DNA of 25,805 nucleotides from a virus. Shown here in pieces: positions 1-23,468 of the stretch. The notes beneath the pieces are model-generated. The model had not been told where the DNA came from. It worked only from the letters and a program-made list of their open reading frames with translations, and did no database searches. The stretch spans positions 1 to 25,805 of IMG/VR virus record IMGVR_UViG_3300017917_000553; one strand, given 5' to 3'. Position numbers and translations under genes: made by a program. Numbering within the stretch: position 1 is the stretch's first letter; each line of letters begins with the position of its first letter.

Positions 1-3000
1 CGTTAGGTGTTTCTATGTAAACCATTACATATCCGGAACCCGGTATGCTGGCAATTACTCGTTTGTTCTTGTCATCATAGAGAACCTTGGTTCCTGTTCT
101 CTTCGGATCTGAAACTCCGTAATCTAAAACATCTTTATAGGTATACTGCTTTTTCTTCTGAATAACTTCCCAAAGACCGTTTTGATCTTTGTCTATCCAC
201 AATTTGGCATTGTTTGGCAATAATGCTGCATGTGGTTTATTAACTGTATCGTAAGTTTCAAATCTCGCAGATTTCATCAGCCAAACATCAGCGAACGAGC
301 TGGCTGTAAATTCCGGATCTTCTGCATCTTCTGCTATAGTAATTGTGATGGTAGAAGTGCTGTCGTCCGGAACTGATGTAACTTCATAAAATCCTGTTAG
401 TTTAGAAATCTTAAATCCTACAATATCGCCAACGGCTATAGCATGTGCTCTGTTAAAACTTATAACTAATTCTGTTACATTTCTTTCTATTCCAACAACA
501 AATAGAATCGATGATTGTACAAATCTATAAACGTTCCATGTTAATCCTTCAAATGTAATCCAAATGTTCGAATTAACTGTTAGCTGTTCAATGTCAAGGG
601 CTAGTAGTTCGGCTCTTGATCCTACAGTGACATCTATTTGATCAGCCTTAACAAATCCTGCTGTTAAAAATGGCAGTGATTCATAGGAAGCCGGAATAAA
701 ACCATCAGTGCTGATATCTTGAGGTAGTATAGTAAAATTAGAGTTAGTAACTCTATAAAATCTATCTAGAGGTTCAGCAGGTAAATTTTCAACATAAAGA
801 ATAGGCTGAGGATTGATTAAAAAATTATCCTTGAACAGTTCAATTTCCTGTTCTCTAATTTGATCATATCCGCCTAATCTACCTACCCTAAATGCCCACT
901 CTTCATTTAACTCAATGCTGGCATTATCTGTTTCGCTTAGTTTATCAAAGACTTTTACTATGGCATTATTAGTGCCTTTTTCTCTGATAAATCCTCGATA
1001 CAATCTTAATTGTGTTACAGGATCTTCGGCAAGATTCTGCAGATAACTTCTGGTCTGGTAACCAATAGTATGACGAGCTAATTCTCTTTGAGTAAGACCC
1101 ACACCGTCAGTTTCTACTTCGAAATAATCTTCAAAGAGATTTATTCTATAATCAAAATTAGGTACTAGAGATTTAGTTGGCGTAGAATCTAACCTGCTCC
1201 AACTAGCTTCATCAAATTCTTCTGTGCCTTGTTGAGTAAATTGACTAACCCAGAAATAAGATTTGTATTGAACAATATCACCAAGTTTGTAATCAACGAA
1301 CGGAGACCAATTTTCAATATTGACATTGTCAAATAAGAATCCCGGGCTGGTATAATCGCCGTCCCAATCTACTGTACGGAAACCTTGGACCTTTATTCTG
1401 TCTTGTCTGTATCCTGTAGTTTTTTCATATATTACATCGTTGAAAACTGTTCTGTCTGAAAATACAACAACGTTTTCTTTCAACACATAGAATGCTTTGA
1501 GGTAATAAATTCCCTCTGTTGTGTTAGTAATAGAAACTTCAATTCTTTGGAAATCTCTTTTTACATTTATAAATTCTGGTCGAAGAGGTGTTCCGTTACT
1601 CTTAAAAATTTGATAATCATAAAAACTGTCAAGGAAGCTTTCTGCAACACCAACAGGAATACTGATTACTAATTTTTCCGCACAAGGACTTAACGAAATT
1701 AAAGATCCAACATCCCAGTTATGTCTAGTCCAGAACATAAATTCTTTTGCAGAAGTGGTCCAGTCTTTGGAAACTTTTAATTCTCGATCGTAATCGTCAA
1801 ATATAAATCCTATAGATTTGAGATAGGCTTCGTATCCTAATAAGAAATCTACAACTGCTTGTACGGTAGTTAATTCCTCTCCGTAGGATAATTTTTTCAA
1901 ATTAAAGTAGTTGAAGTTTCTTCTTTGGAAAGCTTCAACAGCACCTCTTAAAGGCAACTTAGGTATTTTTGTCCAGTTTGATTTTTCAAACTCGGCGGTC
2001 TGATTTGTTCGAATAGCTCTAAAATAATCGCCTCTATAAAGAACTATTTCTCCGTTATTAAAAACTCTGTCAGCAGTCCATTCAGTATATGGGGCACTTA
2101 CTCCGCCAACACTGATCAACGGGTCAGTCTGTGTAGTTACTGGTTCGTAATAATAAAAATACGGTGCTATAGAATCGTAGCCTGTGACTTGCCAACCCCT
2201 CGATGTTTTTTCGATAAGAACACCGCTATATCCTATTGCAACAATCGGAACGCTGACATTAAAAATAATGTCGTAGTTTTCGGGCGGAACAAATATACTG
2301 CTAGACGACGACTTAGGACTCTTAGAATCTAAAAGATATTTCTGCTGAGTCTTGTCAACGAAACCAGAAATTCTTGATGTTAAAGAAACATTGATATTAG
2401 AAACTTTATTTCTAAATTCGTCTACAGATACACCGAGATACTTTATGTAAGATACTAGGTAGTTTACTATACCAGATGCTAATTCTTCGCCTGTATCAGG
2501 AATTACAATATCATCTAAAGTAATAAATTTATTTGAAGCAGTATTAATTAATTGATTGACATTGTTAAGTTTCTTTCTAGACAGATCAAAACCTTTGTTG
2601 ATAAAATCATAAGGCTTTAACAACATCAATGCTATTGTTACCGCAAATGGCCATTCAGAGCTTGAGCGCCATGCATATTCTGCTGGGCCTTGATCTCCGA
2701 ATACAAAACTTCCTTTGTTATTAACTAACGTAAAATTAAGAGCCAGCCCCGAGTCTAACGGACTTAATAATACACCGTCAGCATTTACAGGAATATGCTG
2801 TAAAATAGTAGGTCTTGCATAACGTGAATATCGACCTGCTTTTTCGCCTTGTCTAATAATTCCGTCTCTAATATCTTCCCACAGGATTAAATTGTTTGAA
2901 GTATAAGGAGCTTCTCCGTATTCTGAATCCCACCAGGTGGGTTTTTCGCTAAATCCTAACATCTCCCAAGGACAGGTATGAGGTCTATCGGTATCATAGA

Positions 3001-6000
3001 ACCACTTATAGACTCCTCTCCAATACCCCGGAAGATTGATAGCTCCGGTTTGGTCTGTCATTGAGCTATATGTATAGGTGAAACTATTTTCTGAATCAAA
3101 ATATTCGTTGAGAGTATAACCTATACTTGTATTGGATATCCATTTTAAAAATTCTTGATTTACAATATTATCGATTTGTTTTTTTGTAAATTCTGCATTT
3201 CCGTAATATCCGCCTAGAGCTAGATCTATATCAAATAAGTTACTGTCATAATCTACTTTTAAATTGTTGTAAATTCTTAGTTCTAATTCTAAAAGTAAAT
3301 CGTCTCTATAATCTCCATAGCAGGCAGTTAGGCTTCCGTCGTGACCTTGTATTACTTCTTTAGGTTCAACATAAGTGTCGTCGATAAATTTTGTCGGAGT
3401 ATATTTTTTGTATAATCCTAGTTTTGTCGGAGTAGGCGGAATGAAAGAATAACTGGTAGAAACATATTCTCTAATTTCTACAACATCGCCCTCAGCTAGA
3501 TTCACATTTAAGATTACGAATCCAAAATTAGAATTGAAAGTATAGTCTCTACCAACTAATAACTGTTGTTGATTTATATAAACATAAACGGCTCTTCTGC
3601 TTAAATCGTCTAAATTAAATTTTTCTGACAACGCAAAAGTCTTTATCTCTGGATCATCTACTTCGTATAAAATTGTAGTATATGCTCCGCTTCCTACCAT
3701 ATCAGAATCAGAGAACGGACTTTTTTCTGTTTTAGTCTTTGAAAGAATGTTGATTATTTCATCTACAAATTCTGGAATATTTTCATTGAATGGTAGTTCT
3801 ACAGCTTTTATCAAAAAGCTGTTTTTGAATTCTGAATAAGATTTTTTAGCGAACTGAATTGATTTAATAGCATTAAATTTTTTATCGCAGAGCAAAAACA
3901 TTGATAACGGAGCAAGTCCAGAATGTTTTAGAAATCTTTTTCCGTATCTTCTATAATCAAATAAATTTCTTAGATTAGAATCACCAGGAATATTTCCTAC
4001 AAAATCAGTATCCCATTCTACCGCTGTTAGTAAGTGGTCTGATGCTTCGCCGAAAGTAAACGATGTCAACTCTTGGTTAAGCGGGTTCTTTTCCAATCCC
4101 ACAGGGATTTCGTAATATCCCAGGTTAGGTTCTACATTTGAAACTATTTTTACAGATAGTACATCGCCTGCTGTGAAGGTTTTATCAAATGTAAATTCAT
4201 TATTAAATCTAGTGTAAGAAACTTTTGTTTTAAAACCGTTAAGATAAAAATTAATTTCCCCGGCTTGATCATCTTCAAACAGATCCCAATCTACAGTTTG
4301 TAATGTAACTTTGTTTGTGTTTTCTGTTATGGTAGCAGAATCTATTATAGGCTGAACATATCTGTTTTCTAATAAATTCCACCCGTTGGCTAATCCTTTA
4401 TCATTATTAAATTTGTAAAAGCCGGTTGAAATTTTTAGACTTGTATTTCTTTTATTTTCGAGATAATTTATTGTATCTGTATCCCATGTCCAGCTGAACT
4501 GTATGTCGCCGACATTGTCAATATTAAGATAACTTAGACTGAAACCTAATTCCGAATCAGCTGTGCTGGTTCCTACTTTATAGGTCAATAACTTAGTTCC
4601 AACAAAAGTACTGACCGAATATTTTTCATTGTTAGAAAAACTCACACCATCGGCATCAAAAGCATCAAACAATGGAGATTGATTAGTTGAAGTTTTTTCT
4701 TGGCTCTTAACCCAGTTAGTTCCGTTGAAGTGGAACATTTTTCCTGCGTTAATTTTTCCTCTTTTAACTAATACAGATTCGCCTAGCCTAGACTCACCAT
4801 CAACTTCTAATCTTAGATGTATTTGTTTTCTTCCGTTGAATGTGATAAATTCAACTTTATAAATTTTATTGTTTGATAAAGAATCAGTATCAGCAGTTAC
4901 AAGTATTCTTGCACCGTCAAATAAAAATTCTCCGTCTATATTGTAACCTGTACTGCCTTCTATTTTACTAAAAATGTCGTCGGTAAAAGTATCGACATAG
5001 TCAACATTATTCTTAGAGATTGCACCGTGATTATACAACTGCAAATCTGCTTGGAATTCGATAATAGGTCTTTTGGCTCGTTGAGCTTCGTTCGCAGGAA
5101 AATCTTGACCTCTACTCTTGTAAGAATACTCTAATACTGATCTGTGGAACCATCTATTATATCTACTCCAAGGATTGTTGTCCTTGGACGTTCTATTGAT
5201 AACAATGTAATCTTTAGCAATAGGAAAAGCTGTGGCATCATCGAAAGGCTCTGTATCAAAACCTGCGTTATCGAATAATACTTCGGGTGTGCTATTGTTT
5301 ATTCCTGGCGGAATTAAATCATTAAATCTCTTAAGAGCTATAGATTCTCCAACACCTTCGATTAACCAAGTATCTCTTGAATATTTTTCTGGGACAACTT
5401 TTCCTCTGAAAGAAATAACAAGCCCGTTTGTAAACTCTACATTGTTACTGCTGGTATATGTTGTTTTTCCAATGATTTCTTTTTCAACATCGAGTTTTGT
5501 ATTTTCTTCTATATCAGAAATTATAAATCTACCAAATCTATCTGCTGTTACAGCAGACTGATAAAACAATACATCTGGTGCGTCTAGAGGAACATTGAAT
5601 ATCACGTCGCCTAATTCTGCTCCGTTGTTTGTAACTCCAATATTATAATCTAACGCAGTACCTCTTCCTACTGCTTCAACAAATTCCCAATCGCCGGTAT
5701 TCTCATCAATAGTGCTTCCGTCGCCTGGATTGATATCTACTCTAGCTTTCCATAGTTTTTCGTTAAAGGTGGCTAATTGGCCTGCTTTGTATGCGATTAC
5801 AGGATTGTATAACAGACTTCCTGTATCGTAATTTGTTTTAATTGTAAATCCTTCCTTAGGAGCATTTACTTTAAAAATATACTTCTGTCCTCTATATAAA
5901 GTAATAGTAGGATTATTAGTTAAACCGTCAGGAGAAAATACATAAGTCGCGCCGAATCCCAGCTTAACTCTATATGTACTGGTTATGCCTACATAGTTTC

Positions 6001-6463
6001 CAAAAACATCGACCGGTGGGGGGCCGAGCGGCTCCCAAAAATATTCACGATAGTTGACAAACTTGTCCCAGTCGATTGGAGGATCCCAGGTATAATGTGC
6101 TTGGCCTGTGGTCTTGTTATCGTTTTCTTCATTGTTACCAAAAAACTTAATTTGATTTTTAAGATCTATGTAATCAACAAAACTTTCAATTTTGTCTTGA
6201 TTTTTTGTAATTACACCAGGTTCAAGTTGGTATCTACTTCTTAGGGTTCCGTCGTCGTCGAGATATACATCAGATGATTTAAATGTTTTTCCGTATCTTC
6301 TGCCTATGTATCCGGTAGTTTTTTCTAGTACGCCCGGTTGGATTAGCGGATCTACTACTGCACCGAAGAACTTTTCATTCGTATCGGTTCTGAAGATTGA
6401 TGGTAATAGATCAACCGTTCTTCTAATCGGTAACTGACTTTTTGGAAAAATTTTATCTGCCAT
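1..6463 (-). CDS. Giant baseplate/tail structural protein, 3' end outside the window
   Basis: The minus-strand frame is open from an ATG at 6463 to the left edge, 2154 codons, and I found no stop on reading it through. The gene starts 9 bases after the gp6 stop, so it is the next cistron of the baseplate operon, where T4 carries gp7 and gp8. I see no proof that it is a gp7 homologue. Visible pieces: a cupredoxin-like beta segment at about residues 170-215 (core TITLYRGQKYIF). Three short W/Y-rich units at about 216-260, 1456-1500 and 1717-1756 share the pattern Y-x-x-G-x-[IL]-[VA]-x-[YF] ... W, like carbohydrate-binding family 5/12 modules. A conserved-looking block at about 1135-1190 contains LPGYWRGVYKWFYDTDRPHT. 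I recall that last block from large virion proteins of marine T4-like phages, but this is from memory and unchecked. The role is inferred as baseplate periphery or fibre-network protein. That it is a real gene is very likely. Confidence 0.88.
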   Translation of the reverse strand, partial: MADKIFPKSQLPIRRTVDLLPSIFRTDTNEKFFGAVVDPLIQPGVLEKTTGYIGRRYGKTFKSSDVYLDDDGTLRSRYQLEPGVITKNQDKIESFVDYIDLKNQIKFFGNNEENDNKTTGQAHYTWDPPIDWDKFVNYREYFWEPLGPPPVDVFGNYVGITSTYRVKLGFGATYVFSPDGLTNNPTITLYRGQKYIFKVNAPKEGFTIKTNYDTGSLLYNPVIAYKAGQLATFNEKLWKARVDINPGDGSTIDENTGDWEFVEAVGRGTALDYNIGVTNNGAELGDVIFNVPLDAPDVLFYQSAVTADRFGRFIISDIEENTKLDVEKEIIGKTTYTSSNNVEFTNGLVISFRGKVVPEKYSRDTWLIEGVGESIALKRFNDLIPPGINNSTPEVLFDNAGFDTEPFDDATAFPIAKDYIVINRTSKDNNPWSRYNRWFHRSVLEYSYKSRGQDFPANEAQRAKRPIIEFQADLQLYNHGAISKNNVDYVDTFTDDIFSKIEGSTGYNIDGEFLFDGARILVTADTDSLSNNKIYKVEFITFNGRKQIHLRLEVDGESRLGESVLVKRGKINAGKMFHFNGTNWVKSQEKTSTNQSPLFDAFDADGVSFSNNEKYSVSTFVGTKLLTYKVGTSTADSELGFSLSYLNIDNVGDIQFSWTWDTDTINYLENKRNTSLKISTGFYKFNNDKGLANGWNLLENRYVQPIIDSATITENTNKVTLQTVDWDLFEDDQAGEINFYLNGFKTKVSYTRFNNEFTFDKTFTAGDVLSVKIVSNVEPNLGYYEIPVGLEKNPLNQELTSFTFGEASDHLLTAVEWDTDFVGNIPGDSNLRNLFDYRRYGKRFLKHSGLAPLSMFLLCDKKFNAIKSIQFAKKSYSEFKNSFLIKAVELPFNENIPEFVDEIINILSKTKTEKSPFSDSDMVGSGAYTTILYEVDDPEIKTFALSEKFNLDDLSRRAVYVYINQQQLLVGRDYTFNSNFGFVILNVNLAEGDVVEIREYVSTSYSFIPPTPTKLGLYKKYTPTKFIDDTYVEPKEVIQGHDGSLTACYGDYRDDLLLELELRIYNNLKVDYDSNLFDIDLALGGYYGNAEFTKKQIDNIVNQEFLKWISNTSIGYTLNEYFDSENSFTYTYSSMTDQTGAINLPGYWRGVYKWFYDTDRPHTCPWEMLGFSEKPTWWDSEYGEAPYTSNNLILWEDIRDGIIRQGEKAGRYSRYARPTILQHIPVNADGVLLSPLDSGLALNFTLVNNKGSFVFGDQGPAEYAWRSSSEWPFAVTIALMLLKPYDFINKGFDLSRKKLNNVNQLINTASNKFITLDDIVIPDTGEELASGIVNYLVSYIKYLGVSVDEFRNKVSNINVSLTSRISGFVDKTQQKYLLDSKSPKSSSSSIFVPPENYDIIFNVSVPIVAIGYSGVLIEKTSRGWQVTGYDSIAPYFYYYEPVTTQTDPLISVGGVSAPYTEWTADRVFNNGEIVLYRGDYFRAIRTNQTAEFEKSNWTKIPKLPLRGAVEAFQRRNFNYFNLKKLSYGEELTTVQAVVDFLLGYEAYLKSIGFIFDDYDRELKVSKDWTTSAKEFMFWTRHNWDVGSLISLSPCAEKLVISIPVGVAESFLDSFYDYQIFKSNGTPLRPEFINVKRDFQRIEVSITNTTEGIYYLKAFYVLKENVVVFSDRTVFNDVIYEKTTGYRQDRIKVQGFRTVDWDGDYTSPGFLFDNVNIENWSPFVDYKLGDIVQYKSYFWVSQFTQQGTEEFDEASWSRLDSTPTKSLVPNFDYRINLFEDYFEVETDGVGLTQRELARHTIGYQTRSYLQNLAEDPVTQLRLYRGFIREKGTNNAIVKVFDKLSETDNASIELNEEWAFRVGRLGGYDQIREQEIELFKDNFLINPQPILYVENLPAEPLDRFYRVTNSNFTILPQDISTDGFIPASYESLPFLTAGFVKADQIDVTVGSRAELLALDIEQLTVNSNIWITFEGLTWNVYRFVQSSILFVVGIERNVTELVISFNRAHAIAVGDIVGFKISKLTGFYEVTSVPDDSTSTITITIAEDAEDPEFTASSFADVWLMKSARFETYDTVNKPHAALLPNNAKLWIDKDQNGLWEVIQKKKQYTYKDVLDYGVSDPKRTGTKVLYDDKNKRVIASIPGSGYVMVYIETPN
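5683..5955 (-). other. Cupredoxin-like segment followed by a carbohydrate-binding-like module within the giant structural protein
   Basis: Reading the minus strand, residues about 170-215 give a beta-rich stretch with TITLYRGQKYIF, the pattern of a plastocyanin/cupredoxin-like domain often seen in marine phage virion proteins. It is followed directly by IAYKAGQLATFNEKLWKARV and a closing DWEF, which resembles the Y-x-x-G-x-x-V-x-Y ... W layout of carbohydrate-binding family 5/12 modules. No copper ligands are apparent, so a structural fold is more likely than metal binding. The assignment rests on pattern recognition only. Confidence 0.4.
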
Positions 6464-15920: not shown

Positions 15921-15929
15921 TTGGAAATA

Positions 15930-16772
15930 ATGACACAACCACCAAAAATAAAGTACCTAACAAACAAAGATTTATTAAAAGAAATACACCTAAGCAAGAA
16001 CACATACTGCATATTCACTAAACCAGAATACCATGAATATGATCTAATTATACCAAATTTAGAAAAACTTAATATACGAACTGTAGCAGAAGCCAAAAGA
16101 AACAAGGCTAGTAGATTAGCTAAACAGGCGTATGAACAATCAGACAGAAAACGTCCGCAAAAAGAATTCGAAATTGATTACAGAAAAATCGCTAAACAAG
16201 ATTTAGTTTTCCGTGTAATGACTTTCGAACATGTTCCATTAGCTCCTGGAAGAAAGAAAACTTTAAAAAATACTGCGGACAGTCACGAAAAAGTAAACTT
16301 TCCTCCTTTCCAACATTGGAAATATGACGAAAACGACAATTTAATCTGTGTCGGAAAAAGTCATTGGGTAGGCGGTCTTAAAACTGGAAAGTTTTCCAAG
16401 GATCACGGACAGATGACTGACAATCTTGCCCGTATGTTTTTAAAACTCTGCGATCGTTATGCTACCAGAGGCAACGTCAGAGGCTATACCTACAACGATG
16501 AGATGAAGGGACAAGCCATTCTTCAACTAACACAGATAGGACTACAATTTGATGAAAGCAAATCTGATAATCCTTTCGCTTACTATACTGCTGCTGTCAC
16601 TAATTCATTCGTTAGAATTATCAACATTGAGAAACGTAACCAAAACATTAGAGACGACATTCTCGAAATGAACGGTATGAATCCAAGTTGGACTCGTCAA
16701 AACGGTGGAAGTTCTGGCGCAAGTAGCGGACCGGTAGTCAGCGGTACCGTAGATGGAAGCGATTGGGATTGA
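15930..16772 (+). CDS. gp55: Late-transcription sigma factor gp55
   Basis: gp55 binds host RNA polymerase core and directs it to late promoters (TATAAATA-like -10 sites), acting with the sliding clamp in T4. The product starts IKYLTNKDLLKEI, close to T4 YNYVNNKELLQAI. Residues about 170-235 hold the sigma region 2-like core: MFLKLCDRYATRGNVRGYTY, then GLQFDESKSDNPFAYYTAAV, then TNSFVRIINIEKRNQ. The C-terminus is a Gly/Ser-rich stretch ending acidic (VDGSDWD), comparable to the acidic, clamp-binding tail of T4 gp55. At 280 residues it exceeds T4 (185); the surplus is a charged segment at about residues 35-140. It opens the plus-strand gp55-gp47-gp46 block and is divergent from the tail operon it probably activates. 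Confidence 0.9.
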   Translation: MTQPPKIKYLTNKDLLKEIHLSKNTYCIFTKPEYHEYDLIIPNLEKLNIRTVAEAKRNKASRLAKQAYEQSDRKRPQKEFEIDYRKIAKQDLVFRVMTFEHVPLAPGRKKTLKNTADSHEKVNFPPFQHWKYDENDNLICVGKSHWVGGLKTGKFSKDHGQMTDNLARMFLKLCDRYATRGNVRGYTYNDEMKGQAILQLTQIGLQFDESKSDNPFAYYTAAVTNSFVRIINIEKRNQNIRDDILEMNGMNPSWTRQNGGSSGASSGPVVSGTVDGSDWD

Positions 16773-19841: not shown

Positions 19842-20315
19842 ATGACATGGTTATATCACGGTACAGAAGTTCTAGAACTTCCTGAAAGTTGCGTAGGATT
19901 TGTGTATCTCATCACAAATAAAATCTCTGGAAAAAAGTACATAGGCAAAAAATTAGCCCAATTTAAAAAAACTACCTATAAAACAGTAAAATTAAAGAAC
20001 GGCAACAAGAAGAAAAAGAAAATTCGAGGCAAAATCGAAAGCGATTGGCGCGATTATTACGGTTCGAACGTAGAGCTTAATAAGGACGTTGAGCAGTTAG
20101 GCACAGAAAACTTCACCAGAGAGATACTTTATTATTGCGAATCAAAGGCTGAATGCAGCTACATCGAAGCCAGGGAACAATTTAGGCGCAAAGTTTTAGA
20201 AAGTAATGACTATTACAATGGGCATATTCAGGTTCGAGTTCATGGCTCTCACATATTAAAATCCCGTCTTTTACTAGAATCACAGACTGACTTAGACACA
20301 CCTAAGGCTCAATAA
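19842..20315 (+). CDS. GIY-YIG nuclease-like protein
   Basis: 157 residues with a GIY-YIG signature: GFVYL at 19-23 and YIGKK at 33-37, spaced as in the family. A Lys-rich loop follows (about 42-64), then SDWRDYYGSN at 67-76, NFTREILYYC at 90-99, and YIEAREQF at 107-114, where E109 or E112 could be the metal-binding glutamate. The usual catalytic Arg is not obvious. Related phage proteins are often labelled Seg-like homing endonucleases, but the same fold also serves DNA repair; the family does not decide between them. It follows the small helical gene by 15 bases with no strong ribosome site, and is the last gene before the hairpin-rich gap. Confidence 0.8.
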   Translation: MTWLYHGTEVLELPESCVGFVYLITNKISGKKYIGKKLAQFKKTTYKTVKLKNGNKKKKKIRGKIESDWRDYYGSNVELNKDVEQLGTENFTREILYYCESKAECSYIEAREQFRRKVLESNDYYNGHIQVRVHGSHILKSRLLLESQTDLDTPKAQ

Positions 20316-20791
20316 ATCCAGGCAAAATAATGCGGTTTTTGGCTTGCGCAGGCCTAAGTTCGTGCGCTCTAAACCTGGTCATTTGGTGGTCACAGGGACG
20401 GAATTCCACGCCGCAGTGGGGCTCAACTACTACCCGAAAGGATGAAGATCGCTTAAAACCTGCGATTTAGTTGTTTGAAAAGGATACACAAAGGTAAAAT
20501 GAAGGGAGAAAAACCCTACGTTTACAAAGATGTTAGCGTATTTTTGTAAACCGCCGTCATAAACAAGACATGGCTCGAGGTACCGGATGACCGCCTCTGT
20601 AATGCTATAACGCTAAGTGACTTGCCGTACTCGGATAATGCACATTTCTTGGCCCGGAAACGGGCTAAGTGTGACCATTAATATCTGGATAATGTTAAAA
20701 CTGCTTCGCAGTTAATAATTACATCAGTGTTATAAGAAAAGAAAAATGCGTTGAGCGTTAGCGAAAACGCAAGCGAGCTTCGCTCGCTTTC
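20316..20791 (+). ncRNA. Candidate large structured non-coding RNA
   Basis: No convincing open frame crosses this stretch of more than 450 bases, and its texture differs from the neighbours: many short perfect inverted repeats and GC-rich tracts. Stems seen: CCAGG/CCTGG (20318-20322 with 20374-20378) enclosing GCGCA/TGCGC (20346-20350 with 20363-20367); TCCAC/GTGGG (20405-20409 with 20416-20420); a 7-bp stem 20446-20452 with 20462-20468; AGGG/CCCT (20503-20506 with 20514-20517); a 9-bp stem 20520-20528 with 20543-20551; CGAG-TAC/GTA-CTCG (20576-20583 with 20627-20633); a 9-bp stem with a GAAA loop (20648-20669) extended by CACA/TGTG; AACTGC/GCAGTT (20699-20704 with 20708-20713); and GCGTT/AACGC (20755-20759 with 20766-20770). 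It ends in a terminator-like hairpin. I see no tRNA, tmRNA, RNase P or group I intron core. The plus strand is inferred from the terminator and the neighbours. Confidence 0.55.
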
Positions 20792-20793
20792 TA
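20771..20793 (+). terminator. Terminator-like hairpin
   Basis: AAGCGAGC (20771-20778), loop TTC, GCTCGCTT (20782-20789): a perfect 8-bp GC-rich stem followed by a short T run (TTTCT). The U tract is short, so strength is uncertain. It separates the upstream early-type block and the hairpin-rich region from the late-promoter-like motif at 20792. Confidence 0.6.
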
Positions 20794-20800
20794 ATAAATA
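20792..20800 (+). promoter_or_regulatory. Putative late promoter for the 20833 operon
   Basis: TAATAAATA, identical to the motif before the baseplate operon, starts within the T run of the preceding hairpin and 32 bases before the ATG at 20833. A terminator followed at once by a late promoter is the arrangement expected at a boundary between early/middle and late units. Confidence 0.6.
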
Positions 20801-20832: not shown

Positions 20833-22377
20833 ATGAAATTACAATCTATCTTATTAGAACAACACCTAGCAAAATCAAGATCGATACTGCGTGAGAGCTG
20901 TGATGGGCTAACAACTTATCAAAGGACTATCGTAGAAGGAATTTATAAAGACTCCTTGCCTTTGATTGAAGCTACAATGACTGCCCAACAGATACAAGAT
21001 CTGTTCGGAGAAGTTGAAAAATCCGCAACTGCTGCTGGTGGTAACAGAACAATGTTAGGCAAAGGGGTAGATGTTGCCAAAGCTGCTGACGAAACTATCA
21101 ACAAGATTGGCAAATGGATGCAGAACACAACGCCAGTCAAAGCCTTTGATCAAAAGTTTGAAGATCTCAAAGGTAAGGTATCTGAAAAGTTTCCAGACCT
21201 AGCTAAGAATCTTACAGCTATGGGCACATGGGCCAAAGAAAATCCTGGAAAGACTGCTGCTATTATTGGTGTGTTGACTACTATCGCTGGTCTTGCGGGC
21301 GGTCCTGTAGGTGGTGCTATCGCTGGTCAGATCTTAAGAGGTGCTACAGAATTACTCAAGGGTGAAAAACTTTCCACTGCTATCGGTAAAGGTATCAAGA
21401 CAGCTGCCTACGGTGCTATCGCAGGTTGGTTATTGGACGGATTAGGTGATTGGTTAGAAGGTCTAAGAGCAGAAGTTGTGCCATTTGACAAAGTTCCTGG
21501 ATTAGTAAAATTAGACGTTGGCGTAACTAGAACACTGTCTATTGGCGGCTCGACATTGAAAGAAAAAGTTTATTCAGTATTTGTTCCTGAAGATCTAGCT
21601 GGAACCATGCAGGCATCAATCAATGCGGCCCGTGGCGGTGACGTTGATGCATTTAAACAGATATATGATTTCTCTAAAAACTTTAGTCGTTCAGATTATC
21701 TAGCTGGCATGAATATCACAAATGCTCTTTCTCAACAACTAGCACAGCAAAACGATGCATTTTTACAGGGAATGACCGCTGCTAATGATCTAATTAGATC
21801 AGCAGCACAAGGCGCCATTGCAGGTAAACTAGATGCTAGTCAAGTCAAAGTTGATGGTAAACCAGTAGAAGGCGAAAAAACTCCTGCCAAAGAAAGCTGG
21901 CAACCAAATTATTATGTACAGACTAGACCATTAACTGAAGGTCAAGTTGGACTGATGTTTAAATCTGTACAACAATTAAATGAAGGTCCTATGGACTGGA
22001 TCAAAAAGAAAGCTGGTAATTTAACTACAAAAATTACCGCTGACAAGTTAATGGGTGCTTGGAAGAAAGCAGGATCACCCACAGACAGCAACGAAGTAGC
22101 AGAATTTCTAAAAGGTCAAGGTGTAGTCGACGATGTAGTAGCACAGGTTTATCAGACTATGAAATTGCCTTCGCCAGGAACAGCAGAACAACCTGCTCCG
22201 GAAGGATTGAGCTACAAAGAAGTAGTAGATTTAGTCAACAAACTTCCATTAGAAAGAAAACTTAGATTATATAAGTGGATGAATAAATCAAAAGCATCTC
22301 CAGAGCAACAGGCAACACGCAACACTCCACCAAAAACTAAACCAGCCGCAGGTGCTGCAGAACCAGAGGTAGCATAA
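20833..22377 (+). CDS. Putative virion-associated protein with hydrophobic Gly-zipper segments
   Basis: 514 residues; function not known to me beyond likely virion association. It starts MKLQSILLEQ, similar to the starts of the next two genes. Residues about 45-80 contain TAQQIQDLFGEVEKSATAAG then GNRTMLGKG, a phrase I recall from hypothetical structural proteins of marine T4-like phages (memory, unchecked). Residues about 138-175 are hydrophobic and Gly-rich (AAIIGVLTTIAGLAGGPVGG), followed by a second such segment around 190-205. After a Gln/Asp-rich middle region the C-terminal part has two L-x-E-G points (PLTEGQVGLMF, QLNEGPMDWIKKKAGN) and a small helical domain. It ends in a Pro/Ala/Lys tail. 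The stop overlaps the next ATG by 1 base (TAATG). Confidence 0.85.
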   Translation: MKLQSILLEQHLAKSRSILRESCDGLTTYQRTIVEGIYKDSLPLIEATMTAQQIQDLFGEVEKSATAAGGNRTMLGKGVDVAKAADETINKIGKWMQNTTPVKAFDQKFEDLKGKVSEKFPDLAKNLTAMGTWAKENPGKTAAIIGVLTTIAGLAGGPVGGAIAGQILRGATELLKGEKLSTAIGKGIKTAAYGAIAGWLLDGLGDWLEGLRAEVVPFDKVPGLVKLDVGVTRTLSIGGSTLKEKVYSVFVPEDLAGTMQASINAARGGDVDAFKQIYDFSKNFSRSDYLAGMNITNALSQQLAQQNDAFLQGMTAANDLIRSAAQGAIAGKLDASQVKVDGKPVEGEKTPAKESWQPNYYVQTRPLTEGQVGLMFKSVQQLNEGPMDWIKKKAGNLTTKITADKLMGAWKKAGSPTDSNEVAEFLKGQGVVDDVVAQVYQTMKLPSPGTAEQPAPEGLSYKEVVDLVNKLPLERKLRLYKWMNKSKASPEQQATRNTPPKTKPAAGAAEPEVA

Positions 22378-23468
22378 TGAGAATAAATGAAATTTTAACA
22401 GAAAGTCAAGAATTACAAGAAGGTCCGATCTTAAACAAGATTGGTTCAGCCGTAGGTAAAGGCGTAGGCGCACTGGCCAAAGGCGTAGGAGCTGTAGCAG
22501 GCGGAGTAGCAGGACTTGGCAGTGCTATCAAGAAAGGATTCCAAGCAGGCAAGTCAACTGTAGCAGGCGGTGGCGACGATGACGGAGCAGCATCCGGAGG
22601 CGGAACATCGAGCGGCGGAACAAAACCAGCCAGTGGATCAACAGGCGCAGCAGGAACTGACGGAGCAGCAGGCGCAGCAGGTACTGACGGAGCAGCTGGA
22701 GCAGCTGGCGCTGACGGAGCAGCTGGCGCTGCAGGAAAAGCCGGAGCAGCAGGAAAAGCCGGAGCACCAGCACCGGCGCCTGGCGGAACAGCAAGTCCTG
22801 ATGCAAAATACCCTGGAGGCAAAGCTGGAAGTGCAGCGGCCGCAGGAGGTGCAGCAGGAAAACCTGGAGCAGCCGCAGCGGAAGAACCAGCAGCAGGCGG
22901 AGCCGGTGGAACAGCATATGCTCAAGCTCAGAAAGCTATTCAATCTCTTCAACCTCAAGATAAAAAGAAAATTCTTTCATTGTTACAAAAAGATCCAAAA
23001 TTACAAGCTAAGTTAAACACAGCAACAGCTAAGCCAGTAGCAGGCGGCAAGCCAGCGGCAGGCGGAGCACCAGCACCTGGAGGAGCACCGGCAGCAGCAC
23101 CAGCAGCGGGTGGCGCAGGAGCATTTGGACAAATGGCAGGACAATTAGCCAAGGGCGGCACTGCTCAACCAAGTACAATGGCTGATGCTCCTGTAAGTAA
23201 AACAAACAAAGCCAAGCCTGGCAATCCGAATGTAGCAGCACCAGCAGCTGAACCCGCAGCAGCACCAGCAGCAGCACCAGCAGCAGCACCAGCAGCAGGA
23301 GAACCAGCACCAGCTAAAAAGAAAGGCGGACGCAAAAAAGCCGCTGCACCAAGTCAAGCAGAAATTGATGCAGATCGTGAACGTTTAATGGGACCAACAT
23401 CCGATTCTGTTATCAGACGAGGTAATTTAATAGCTGAAGGTCAACTAAGTATCTTCAGAAGAAAATGA
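22377..23468 (+). CDS. Ala/Gly/Pro-rich putative structural protein with a collagen-like tract
   Basis: 363 residues of low complexity. The start MRINEILTESQELQEGPILN resembles its neighbours and contains two L/I-x-E points. Residues about 20-60 are an amphipathic Gly/Ala/Lys stretch (GSAVGKGVGALAKGVGAVAG). Residues 90-131 are 14 unbroken Gly-X-Y triplets such as GAA, GTD, GAD and GKA, the pattern of a collagen-like triple helix. Residues about 180-220 form a small helical segment (AQAQKAIQSLQPQDKKKILS). An Ala-Pro linker follows, then a basic patch, KKKGGRKKAAAP. The C-terminus reads RGNLIAEGQLSIFRRK. The repeats create long open frames in other phases and on the other strand that I do not regard as genes. 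It overlaps both neighbours (1 and 4 bases). Confidence 0.82.
   Translation: MRINEILTESQELQEGPILNKIGSAVGKGVGALAKGVGAVAGGVAGLGSAIKKGFQAGKSTVAGGGDDDGAASGGGTSSGGTKPASGSTGAAGTDGAAGAAGTDGAAGAAGADGAAGAAGKAGAAGKAGAPAPAPGGTASPDAKYPGGKAGSAAAAGGAAGKPGAAAAEEPAAGGAGGTAYAQAQKAIQSLQPQDKKKILSLLQKDPKLQAKLNTATAKPVAGGKPAAGGAPAPGGAPAAAPAAGGAGAFGQMAGQLAKGGTAQPSTMADAPVSKTNKAKPGNPNVAAPAAEPAAAPAAAPAAAPAAGEPAPAKKKGGRKKAAAPSQAEIDADRERLMGPTSDSVIRRGNLIAEGQLSIFRRK
22644..22769 (+). repeat. Collagen-like Gly-X-Y repeat coding tract
   Basis: Fourteen consecutive codon triplets begin with Gly; Ala dominates X and Y, with Asp and Lys in some. Codons vary (GGC, GGA, GGT; GCA, GCT), so the DNA repeat is imperfect, which suggests selection on the protein pattern rather than a recent DNA expansion. 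Proline is scarce in the tract, unlike animal collagen but common in phage versions. Confidence 0.8.
23235..23300 (+). repeat. Ala-Pro repeat coding tract
   Basis: Near-tandem GCA GCA GCA CCA units encode AAAPAAAPAAAP-like sequence, an extended linker, just before the basic patch KKKGGRKK. Three nearly identical 12-base units make slippage-driven length variation likely between relatives. Confidence 0.75.

Follow-up and report, generated by a model that had tools for sequence, protein, structure and literature searches.

To our knowledge, functions are known for few of the large ornate RNAs, among which GOLLD and ROOL have known ties to phages or prophages. The RNA analyzed here shares its size class and ornate fold with GOLLD, ROOL, and OLE (PMC12286853) and with HEARO; its likeness to GOLLD, ROOL, or HEARO is one of size only, and none of the four gave a match at E values of up to 10 in Rfam (4227 families). 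A match was found to Polynucleobacter-1 (Rfam RF01718), a 141-nt motif published in 2010 with no function given (Weinberg et al. 2010, PMC2864571). The motif was graded as “probably” an RNA and “probably” cis-regulatory, its range being Burkholderiales and fresh water or estuary (PMC2864571). The cis-regulatory label is a curators’ guess that lies outside the covariance model, and among the papers searched, none besides the 2010 one names either Polynucleobacter-1 or RF01718.

RF01718 is the single Rfam match above cut-off within the window, i.e., the whole 25,805-nt stretch of viral DNA that was analyzed. The match spans model positions 1 to 141 of 141, and its score far exceeds the gathering score of 37 (Table 1). 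The earlier note on this DNA, made from the sequence alone, had taken the region for an undescribed RNA without a match to any known one. The latter statement is wrong, and the former holds for only part of the region, the first 136 nt being RF01718 and the remainder new. The gap itself is real: between the end of the GIY-YIG open reading frame (ORF) at 20315 and the start of the following ORF at 20833 there is no + strand ORF of ≥50 amino acids, which disposes of a protein-coding reading. It is also, as noted previously, the sole long gap, the other apparent one (positions 1 to 6463) being a single open ORF of 2154 amino acids. Its folding energy is −147.5 kcal/mol, compared to −125.7 ± 5.6 in shuffled sequences (z −3.9; reached by 0 of 100 shuffles). 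ARAGORN detected no tRNA or tmRNA genes in the whole window, and in Rfam there was no match to group I or II introns and only a chance match to class B RNase P (11.6 bits over 27 nt, cut-off 97).

Table 1. Coordinates of the RNA, its structural elements, and adjoining features in the window
Feature	Position	Strand	Evidence or remarks
SegE-like GIY-YIG endonuclease gene	19842..20315	+	PF19835, E 5.9e-32; phrog_447
Full-length conserved RNA, ~480 nt	20320..20797	+	blastn and nhmmer conservation; 95-pair structure with covariation
RF01718 Polynucleobacter-1 RNA, already known part	20341..20476	+	cmscan 100.7 bits, E 5.5e-21
Helix P1, closes 5′ domain	20332-20336 / 20410-20414	+	5′ side outside RF01718 model
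Helix P4	20424..20473	+	96.7% paired; double changes in 5/6 pairs
Helix P5, inside P4	20447-20452 / 20462-20467	+	
Helix P7, 12 bp	20520..20551	+	Loop holds PK2 strand UUAGCGU
Pseudoknot PK2	P7 loop 20533-20539 with 20610-20616	+	96.6% paired
Pseudoknot PK1	20556-20560 with 20587-20591	+	Most conserved core (GCCGUCAU ... GGUACCGGAUGACCGCC)
Helix P8	20570..20608	+	20571-20607 is the strongest covarying pair overall, 42 joint events
Helix P9, inside P8	20577-20580 / 20594-20597	+	
Direct repeat copy 1, NNA-CUC-N7	20627..20639	+	GUA CUC GGAUAAU in window
Hairpin P10, between repeats	20648..20669	+	Stem and GAAA loop
Direct repeat copy 2, NNA-UCU-N7	20681..20693	+	AUA UCU GGAUAAU in window
Helix P11	20748..20770	+	20751-20767 and 20752-20766 covary
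Helix P12, terminator-like 3′ hairpin	20771..20789	+	Covariation
T4-type late promoter −10 element of downstream operon, outside RNA	20791..20799	+	TAATAAATA

RF01718 covers no more than the 5′ third of a longer conserved RNA, ~480 nt in length. Homologous loci align with the window from ~20315-20320 to ~20801 and hardly past that, and all 13 of the large virus records tested also match RF01718. An exact pattern for the RF01718 core identified at least 119 stretches in IMG/VR; with two patterns from the 3′ half used to fetch further loci, the whole RNA was found at >340 IMG/VR loci, in contigs of up to 355 kb, exact patterns favoring near relatives in such a collection. Where the contig leaves room, searching with the 3′ part gave 207 loci, 203 of which also have the 5′ part, and all 104 loci obtained with the 5′ part have the 3′ part, a joint presence which indicates that the two are one element. 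What had been an orphan Rfam motif thus makes up a third of a large RNA that is present in hundreds of contigs from uncultured phages.

The carriers are large T4-like phages, mostly from freshwater metagenomes, the freshwater attribution resting on the published RF01718 range. Compared to the Burkholderiales range of the 2010 report, the present RNA was found in metagenomic phage contigs; the exact 5′-core pattern gave no match in a GTDB-based collection of bacteria and archaea (84,980 genomes), and the 3′ pattern matched one truncated metagenome-assembled genome (MAG) contig (L349). A second MAG match of the 3′ pattern (L350), without an RF01718 match, was set aside as probably due to chance. 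In searches of named or isolated phage genomes, blastn gave no match of the RNA, the core alone gave chance matches only, and a rumen relative (see below) gave none. Diverged relatives were also observed, namely L216 and L229 (two copies on one 327-kb contig) and L132, in which the 5′ and middle domains are kept and the 3′ domain is different, without evident twin repeats.

Covariation was analyzed in 185 clusters at <90% identity (mean pairwise identity, 66%) using an APC-corrected G-test against a tree-based null, from which the E values derive, in our own R-scape-like script rather than R-scape itself. About 40 Watson-Crick pairs were detected at E <0.05 per alignment, the covarying pairs defining P1 to P9, P11, P12, and the two pseudoknots, PK1 and PK2. 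In a separate check, a fixed 95-pair model including both pseudoknots was counted on an alignment of 60 diverse sequences: 84.6% of the cells were paired, and double compensatory changes numbered 858, versus 276 ± 17 in 500 shuffles (none of which reached the observed value) and 123 to 246 in slid controls, with a covariation score of 0.417 versus 0.179 (shuffled) and 0.071 to 0.121 (slid). The compensatory changes that the earlier note had proposed to look for are hence present and above controls. Much of this support comes from P6 to P12, PK1, and PK2, all of which lie outside the RF01718 model, as do the closing helix and the twin repeats.

At the level of individual pairs, 20334-20412 in P1 occurs as GC (87 sequences), AU (67), and CG (15), with E <0.025, and the four inner pairs of this helix are paired in 92.5% of cells. 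Both-side changes affect 12 of 12 pairs in P7 (six of them significant) and double changes 7 of 7 in PK2, where 20537-20612 and 20538-20611 have E <0.025. In PK1, 20558-20589 is UA in 112 and CG in 73 sequences, i.e., 100% paired with 24 joint events, and 20559-20588 is likewise 100% paired; P8 and P9 are paired at 95% and 98.8%, respectively. At the 3′ end, covariation in P12 is seen for 20774-20786 (39 joint events) and 20772-20788 (22 joint events), both in alignment register. P12 corresponds to the final 8-bp hairpin noticed previously and was not called on the + strand by the terminator scan because the T run is short in the window.

Two other hairpins named in the earlier note were also found in homologues, one with a correction. 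The 9-bp stem with a GAAA loop at 20648-20669 is present as described, eight of its pairs being part of the 95-pair model. The stem at 20520-20551 exists, its claimed length of 9 bp being too short for an actual 12 to 13 bp. The outer stem at 20318-20378 can form in the window (CCAGG/CCUGG), yet homologues do not conserve its 5′ strand, the family-wide partner of CCUGG being CAGG at 20393-20396. On each of the points on which that note thought its proposal might fail, namely, an alignment without covariation, a conserved protein frame, or absence of the gap in relatives, the outcome favored an RNA. Overall, positions 20320 to 20797 encode one structured noncoding RNA with a pseudoknotted core (PK1, PK2, and P8/P9) and a conserved 3′ hairpin. 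Full-length conservation, covariation that includes the pseudoknots, and an own sigma-70-like promoter in some loci all sustain the notion of a large ornate phage RNA, and we consider it almost certain that this is one large, independent molecule.

The GIY-YIG gene lies within three genes upstream of the RNA in 287 of 303 loci and is the immediate neighbor in 282, and in most loci the RNA starts no more than ~30 nt past the GIY-YIG stop. (PHROG 447, to which the protein belongs, carries the label “NAD synthetase”, which has spread to many phage records even though the protein is a GIY-YIG endonuclease of SegE type.) This proximity, together with the terminator-like hairpin at the 3′ end just ahead of the late promoter, would suit a 3′ untranslated tail of the gp47-gp46-GIY-YIG transcript, acting in cis as a stability or termination structure. 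We regard such a tail as unlikely. The same RNA occurs behind unrelated genes in the other 16 loci, several of which have promoters of their own, and two contigs are without that GIY-YIG gene, while the size of the RNA, its pseudoknots, and its conserved single-stranded words far exceed a terminator. Among the loci in which GIY-YIG is missing, L253 and L331 have a sigma-70-like promoter (TAGACA-17-TATAAT) just upstream of the RNA, L301 has TTGACT-17-TATACT after a terminator-like hairpin, and L183 has TTGACT..TATAAT. Over all loci there is no excess of sigma-70-like promoters upstream (6 of 318 versus 7 of 271), suggesting that, where the RNA has its usual neighbors, read-through from the operon upstream probably produces it. 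Given its varied neighbors and the promoter and preceding terminator that it sometimes has, the RNA is a gene of its own, not a part of another gene.

The 3′ half contains two direct repeats, 54 nt apart in the window, one on either side of hairpin P10. The 7-mer (N7) of copy 1 equals that of copy 2 in 185 of 185 clusters, with 12 N7 forms among them, and the preceding CUC (copy 1) and UCU (copy 2) are invariant. The N7 columns covary by identity, not by pairing, all listed pairs being 100% identical: 20633/20687 (G in 97, A in 88) underwent 35 joint changes, 20637/20691 10, 20639/20693 9, and 20634/20688 8. An identical N7 pair is present in at least 312 of the 313 loci with a complete 3′ part (by a pattern test, with one possibly chance match), compared to the 17% identity expected if copy 2 were drawn from the pool. 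The far relative L183 obeys the same rule with a different 7-mer, ACGAAAU. The twin words, which covary by identity and whose positions can be altered either separately or in concert, provide an unusual handle on function.

A search for complements of N7 in the RNA and within 3 kb was negative, as was one in cis that allowed G-U pairs. In five large contigs there was no excess of the own motif near starts, and the gapped 10-mer complement occurred only in the RNA itself and at one site in G011. These results leave a phage-encoded pairing partner unsupported. Contig G011 (145,656 bp; L301/L371/L374) carries two RNA copies, 78% identical, both with the 7-mer AGATGAG; the extra complement site (CTC form) is on the − strand at position ~2971 of L378. 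Two further candidates were rejected: mutual pairing of the repeats or palindromic dimerization is broken by C variants at 20634/20688 and by L183, and a stop codon after the repeats, as in T4 gene 60 ribosomal bypassing, is out because the window already has an in-frame stop ahead of copy 1.

Identical words could also arise if the twin elements were alternative strands of a two-state switch, competing for one strand and kept at equal energy. The RNA does contain a shared cis partner of this kind. The word NAAG occurs at 20564-20567 and 20666-20669, with 20564 and 20666 covarying by identity (77%, 24 joint events), and either copy can pair with CUUN at 20648-20651 in the 5′ strand of P10, which suggests, from the sequence patterns, alternative folds around P10 by strand exchange. 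For N7 itself no complementary cis strand was found, with or without G-U pairs, making a switch based on the twin elements quite improbable.

Twin programmable 7-mers look guide-like, and the tight synteny of the RNA with an immediately upstream nuclease gene recalls the layout of HEARO/IsrB or TnpB-omega RNA, so that the RNA might be a guide or scaffold of the GIY-YIG nuclease. Several observations render this decidedly improbable. The RNA-bearing contigs G006 (121 kb) and G011 (146 kb) have no SegE-type GIY-YIG gene anywhere in the sequence read, and in the seven named phages that encode its nearest homologues, the RNA is missing beside the nuclease gene and the genomes lack an RF01718 match over the cut-off. 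In addition, SegE-type GIY-YIG proteins are a known family of free-standing homing nucleases. The upstream nuclease is not required by the RNA, and the co-encoding typical of OMEGA-like systems breaks down in the 16 GIY-YIG-less loci and in these two contigs. Since the defining bond of RNA-guided systems, that with a nuclease, is not maintained, and none of the three matches in Rfam, the RNA is not filed with GOLLD, ROOL, or HEARO.

The conservation of identity rather than complementarity, as in DNA-binding sites of one protein, would also agree with the repeats being a DNA-level device, such as a recombination or replication site, lying inside the RNA gene. The fixed CUC versus UCU difference in every cluster is unexpected for DNA iterons, the repeats adjoin a covarying RNA core, and paralogues within one rumen-phage genome differ in their repeats (see below), all of which makes this very improbable.

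Of 298 genes that come next downstream, 92 are convergent and 206 lie on the same strand, and the identity of the downstream genes varies between loci. A late promoter at the region’s end had been predicted and is borne out: NATAAATA follows the RNA in 197 of the 309 loci examined, compared to 0 of 321 upstream of the RNA and 0.7% of random 60-mers, and the window encodes a gp55-type late sigma factor at 15921-16772. A riboswitch-like cis-regulatory leader of the downstream gene, as the 2010 grading (PMC2864571) and the same-strand majority would have it, is highly improbable and already largely refuted by the convergent cases; the varied downstream genes, the late promoter interposed between RNA and gene, and the covarying 3′ hairpin that ends the RNA also speak against it. 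The evidence thus corrects the assumption that the RF01718 motif is a gene leader. Homologues of the late operon that contains 22377-23468 (a Gly/Ala/Pro-rich ORF with low-complexity repeats, among tail and baseplate genes) are the usual downstream neighbors of the RNA.

Our preferred reading, to which we give a probability of roughly 0.6, is that of a stand-alone RNA of ~480 nt with twin programmable N7 elements. The RNA would be made in early or middle infection, mostly as the last piece of a gp47-gp46-(small ORF)-GIY-YIG transcript ending at P12, just before the late promoter. It would then be free and stable, its core presenting the two copies of N7 beside P10, and its role is probably that of a trans-acting or structural RNA, not of a leader acting in cis. 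We infer transcription from the promoters, the hairpin, and covariation; its timing, the action in trans, and a common partner are likewise proposed on sequence grounds. Because N7 drifts between phages and never between copies, both copies would have to recognize one target, in the simplest case a single partner nucleic acid that is bound either successively or at two places. That they bind one common nucleic-acid partner is a tentative suggestion, to which we give somewhat less than even odds; a nucleic acid of the host is one candidate, a protein that reads the two sites another, and identity may also be demanded by some intramolecular process. Two observations weigh against parts of this proposal. 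The GIY-YIG neighbor kept in the great majority of loci counts against full independence of the RNA, and a looser link between the two is conceivable; and the differing repeats of paralogous RNAs in one rumen-phage genome speak against one shared N7 target.

These paralogues belong to a second orphan family, cow-rumen-2 (RF02947), which may be a cousin of the present RNA, carried by phages of the rumen as large as 424 kb. The cow-rumen-2 model covers the core (20519-20612) at full length in the window and in 3 of 15 other loci, with scores of 17.5 to 22.9 bits that lie below the gathering threshold of 66. Conversely, a covariance model of the present core built without rumen sequences matches 21 cow-rumen-2-pattern loci at the same spot (E 0.005 to 0.7) and no chance-pattern loci, and it recovers the diverged relatives (L132, L216, L229, and L183) with E values between 6e-20 and 2e-6. 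Both RNAs have, in order, a UAGC-loop hairpin, GCCGCCAU / GCCGUCAU, GUAC(A/C)GGAUGACC, and GUAA, and cow-rumen-2-pattern contigs share GCCGCCAU, GUACAGGAUGACC, and GUAA in the same order as the present RNA. RF02947 RNAs have a plausible counterpart of PK1 and likewise possess direct repeats around a hairpin, rumen-type repeats of ≥7 nt being found in 50% of own pairs versus 13% of crossed pairs. They differ in having another 5′ domain and several copies per contig, with three or four RNA copies in each of the rumen-phage contigs of 411 to 424 kb. The repeats of such paralogous RNAs within one genome differ, suggesting that the match matters within one molecule. Given the subthreshold scores and the reverse E values, kinship of the two families is likely rather than proven.

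It is conceivable, if rather doubtful, that RF01718 and RF02947 each represent a piece of a single superfamily of large RNAs of phages, with a pseudoknotted core and two identical, freely varying words of 7 to 8 nt, which would represent a new, “self-matched” kind of RNA with a mechanism known in no other RNA, for example, the hand-over of a strand between two identical docking sites.

The cow-rumen-2 model (106 nt) itself looks truncated (L391-L509; contigs 3300028832_000001, 3300037455_000543, and 3300023371_000061). In these loci, conservation extends from CCUCGGARCGAA, well upstream of GCCGCCA, to past UAGGCU, and late-promoter-like motifs (TATAAATA) often follow.
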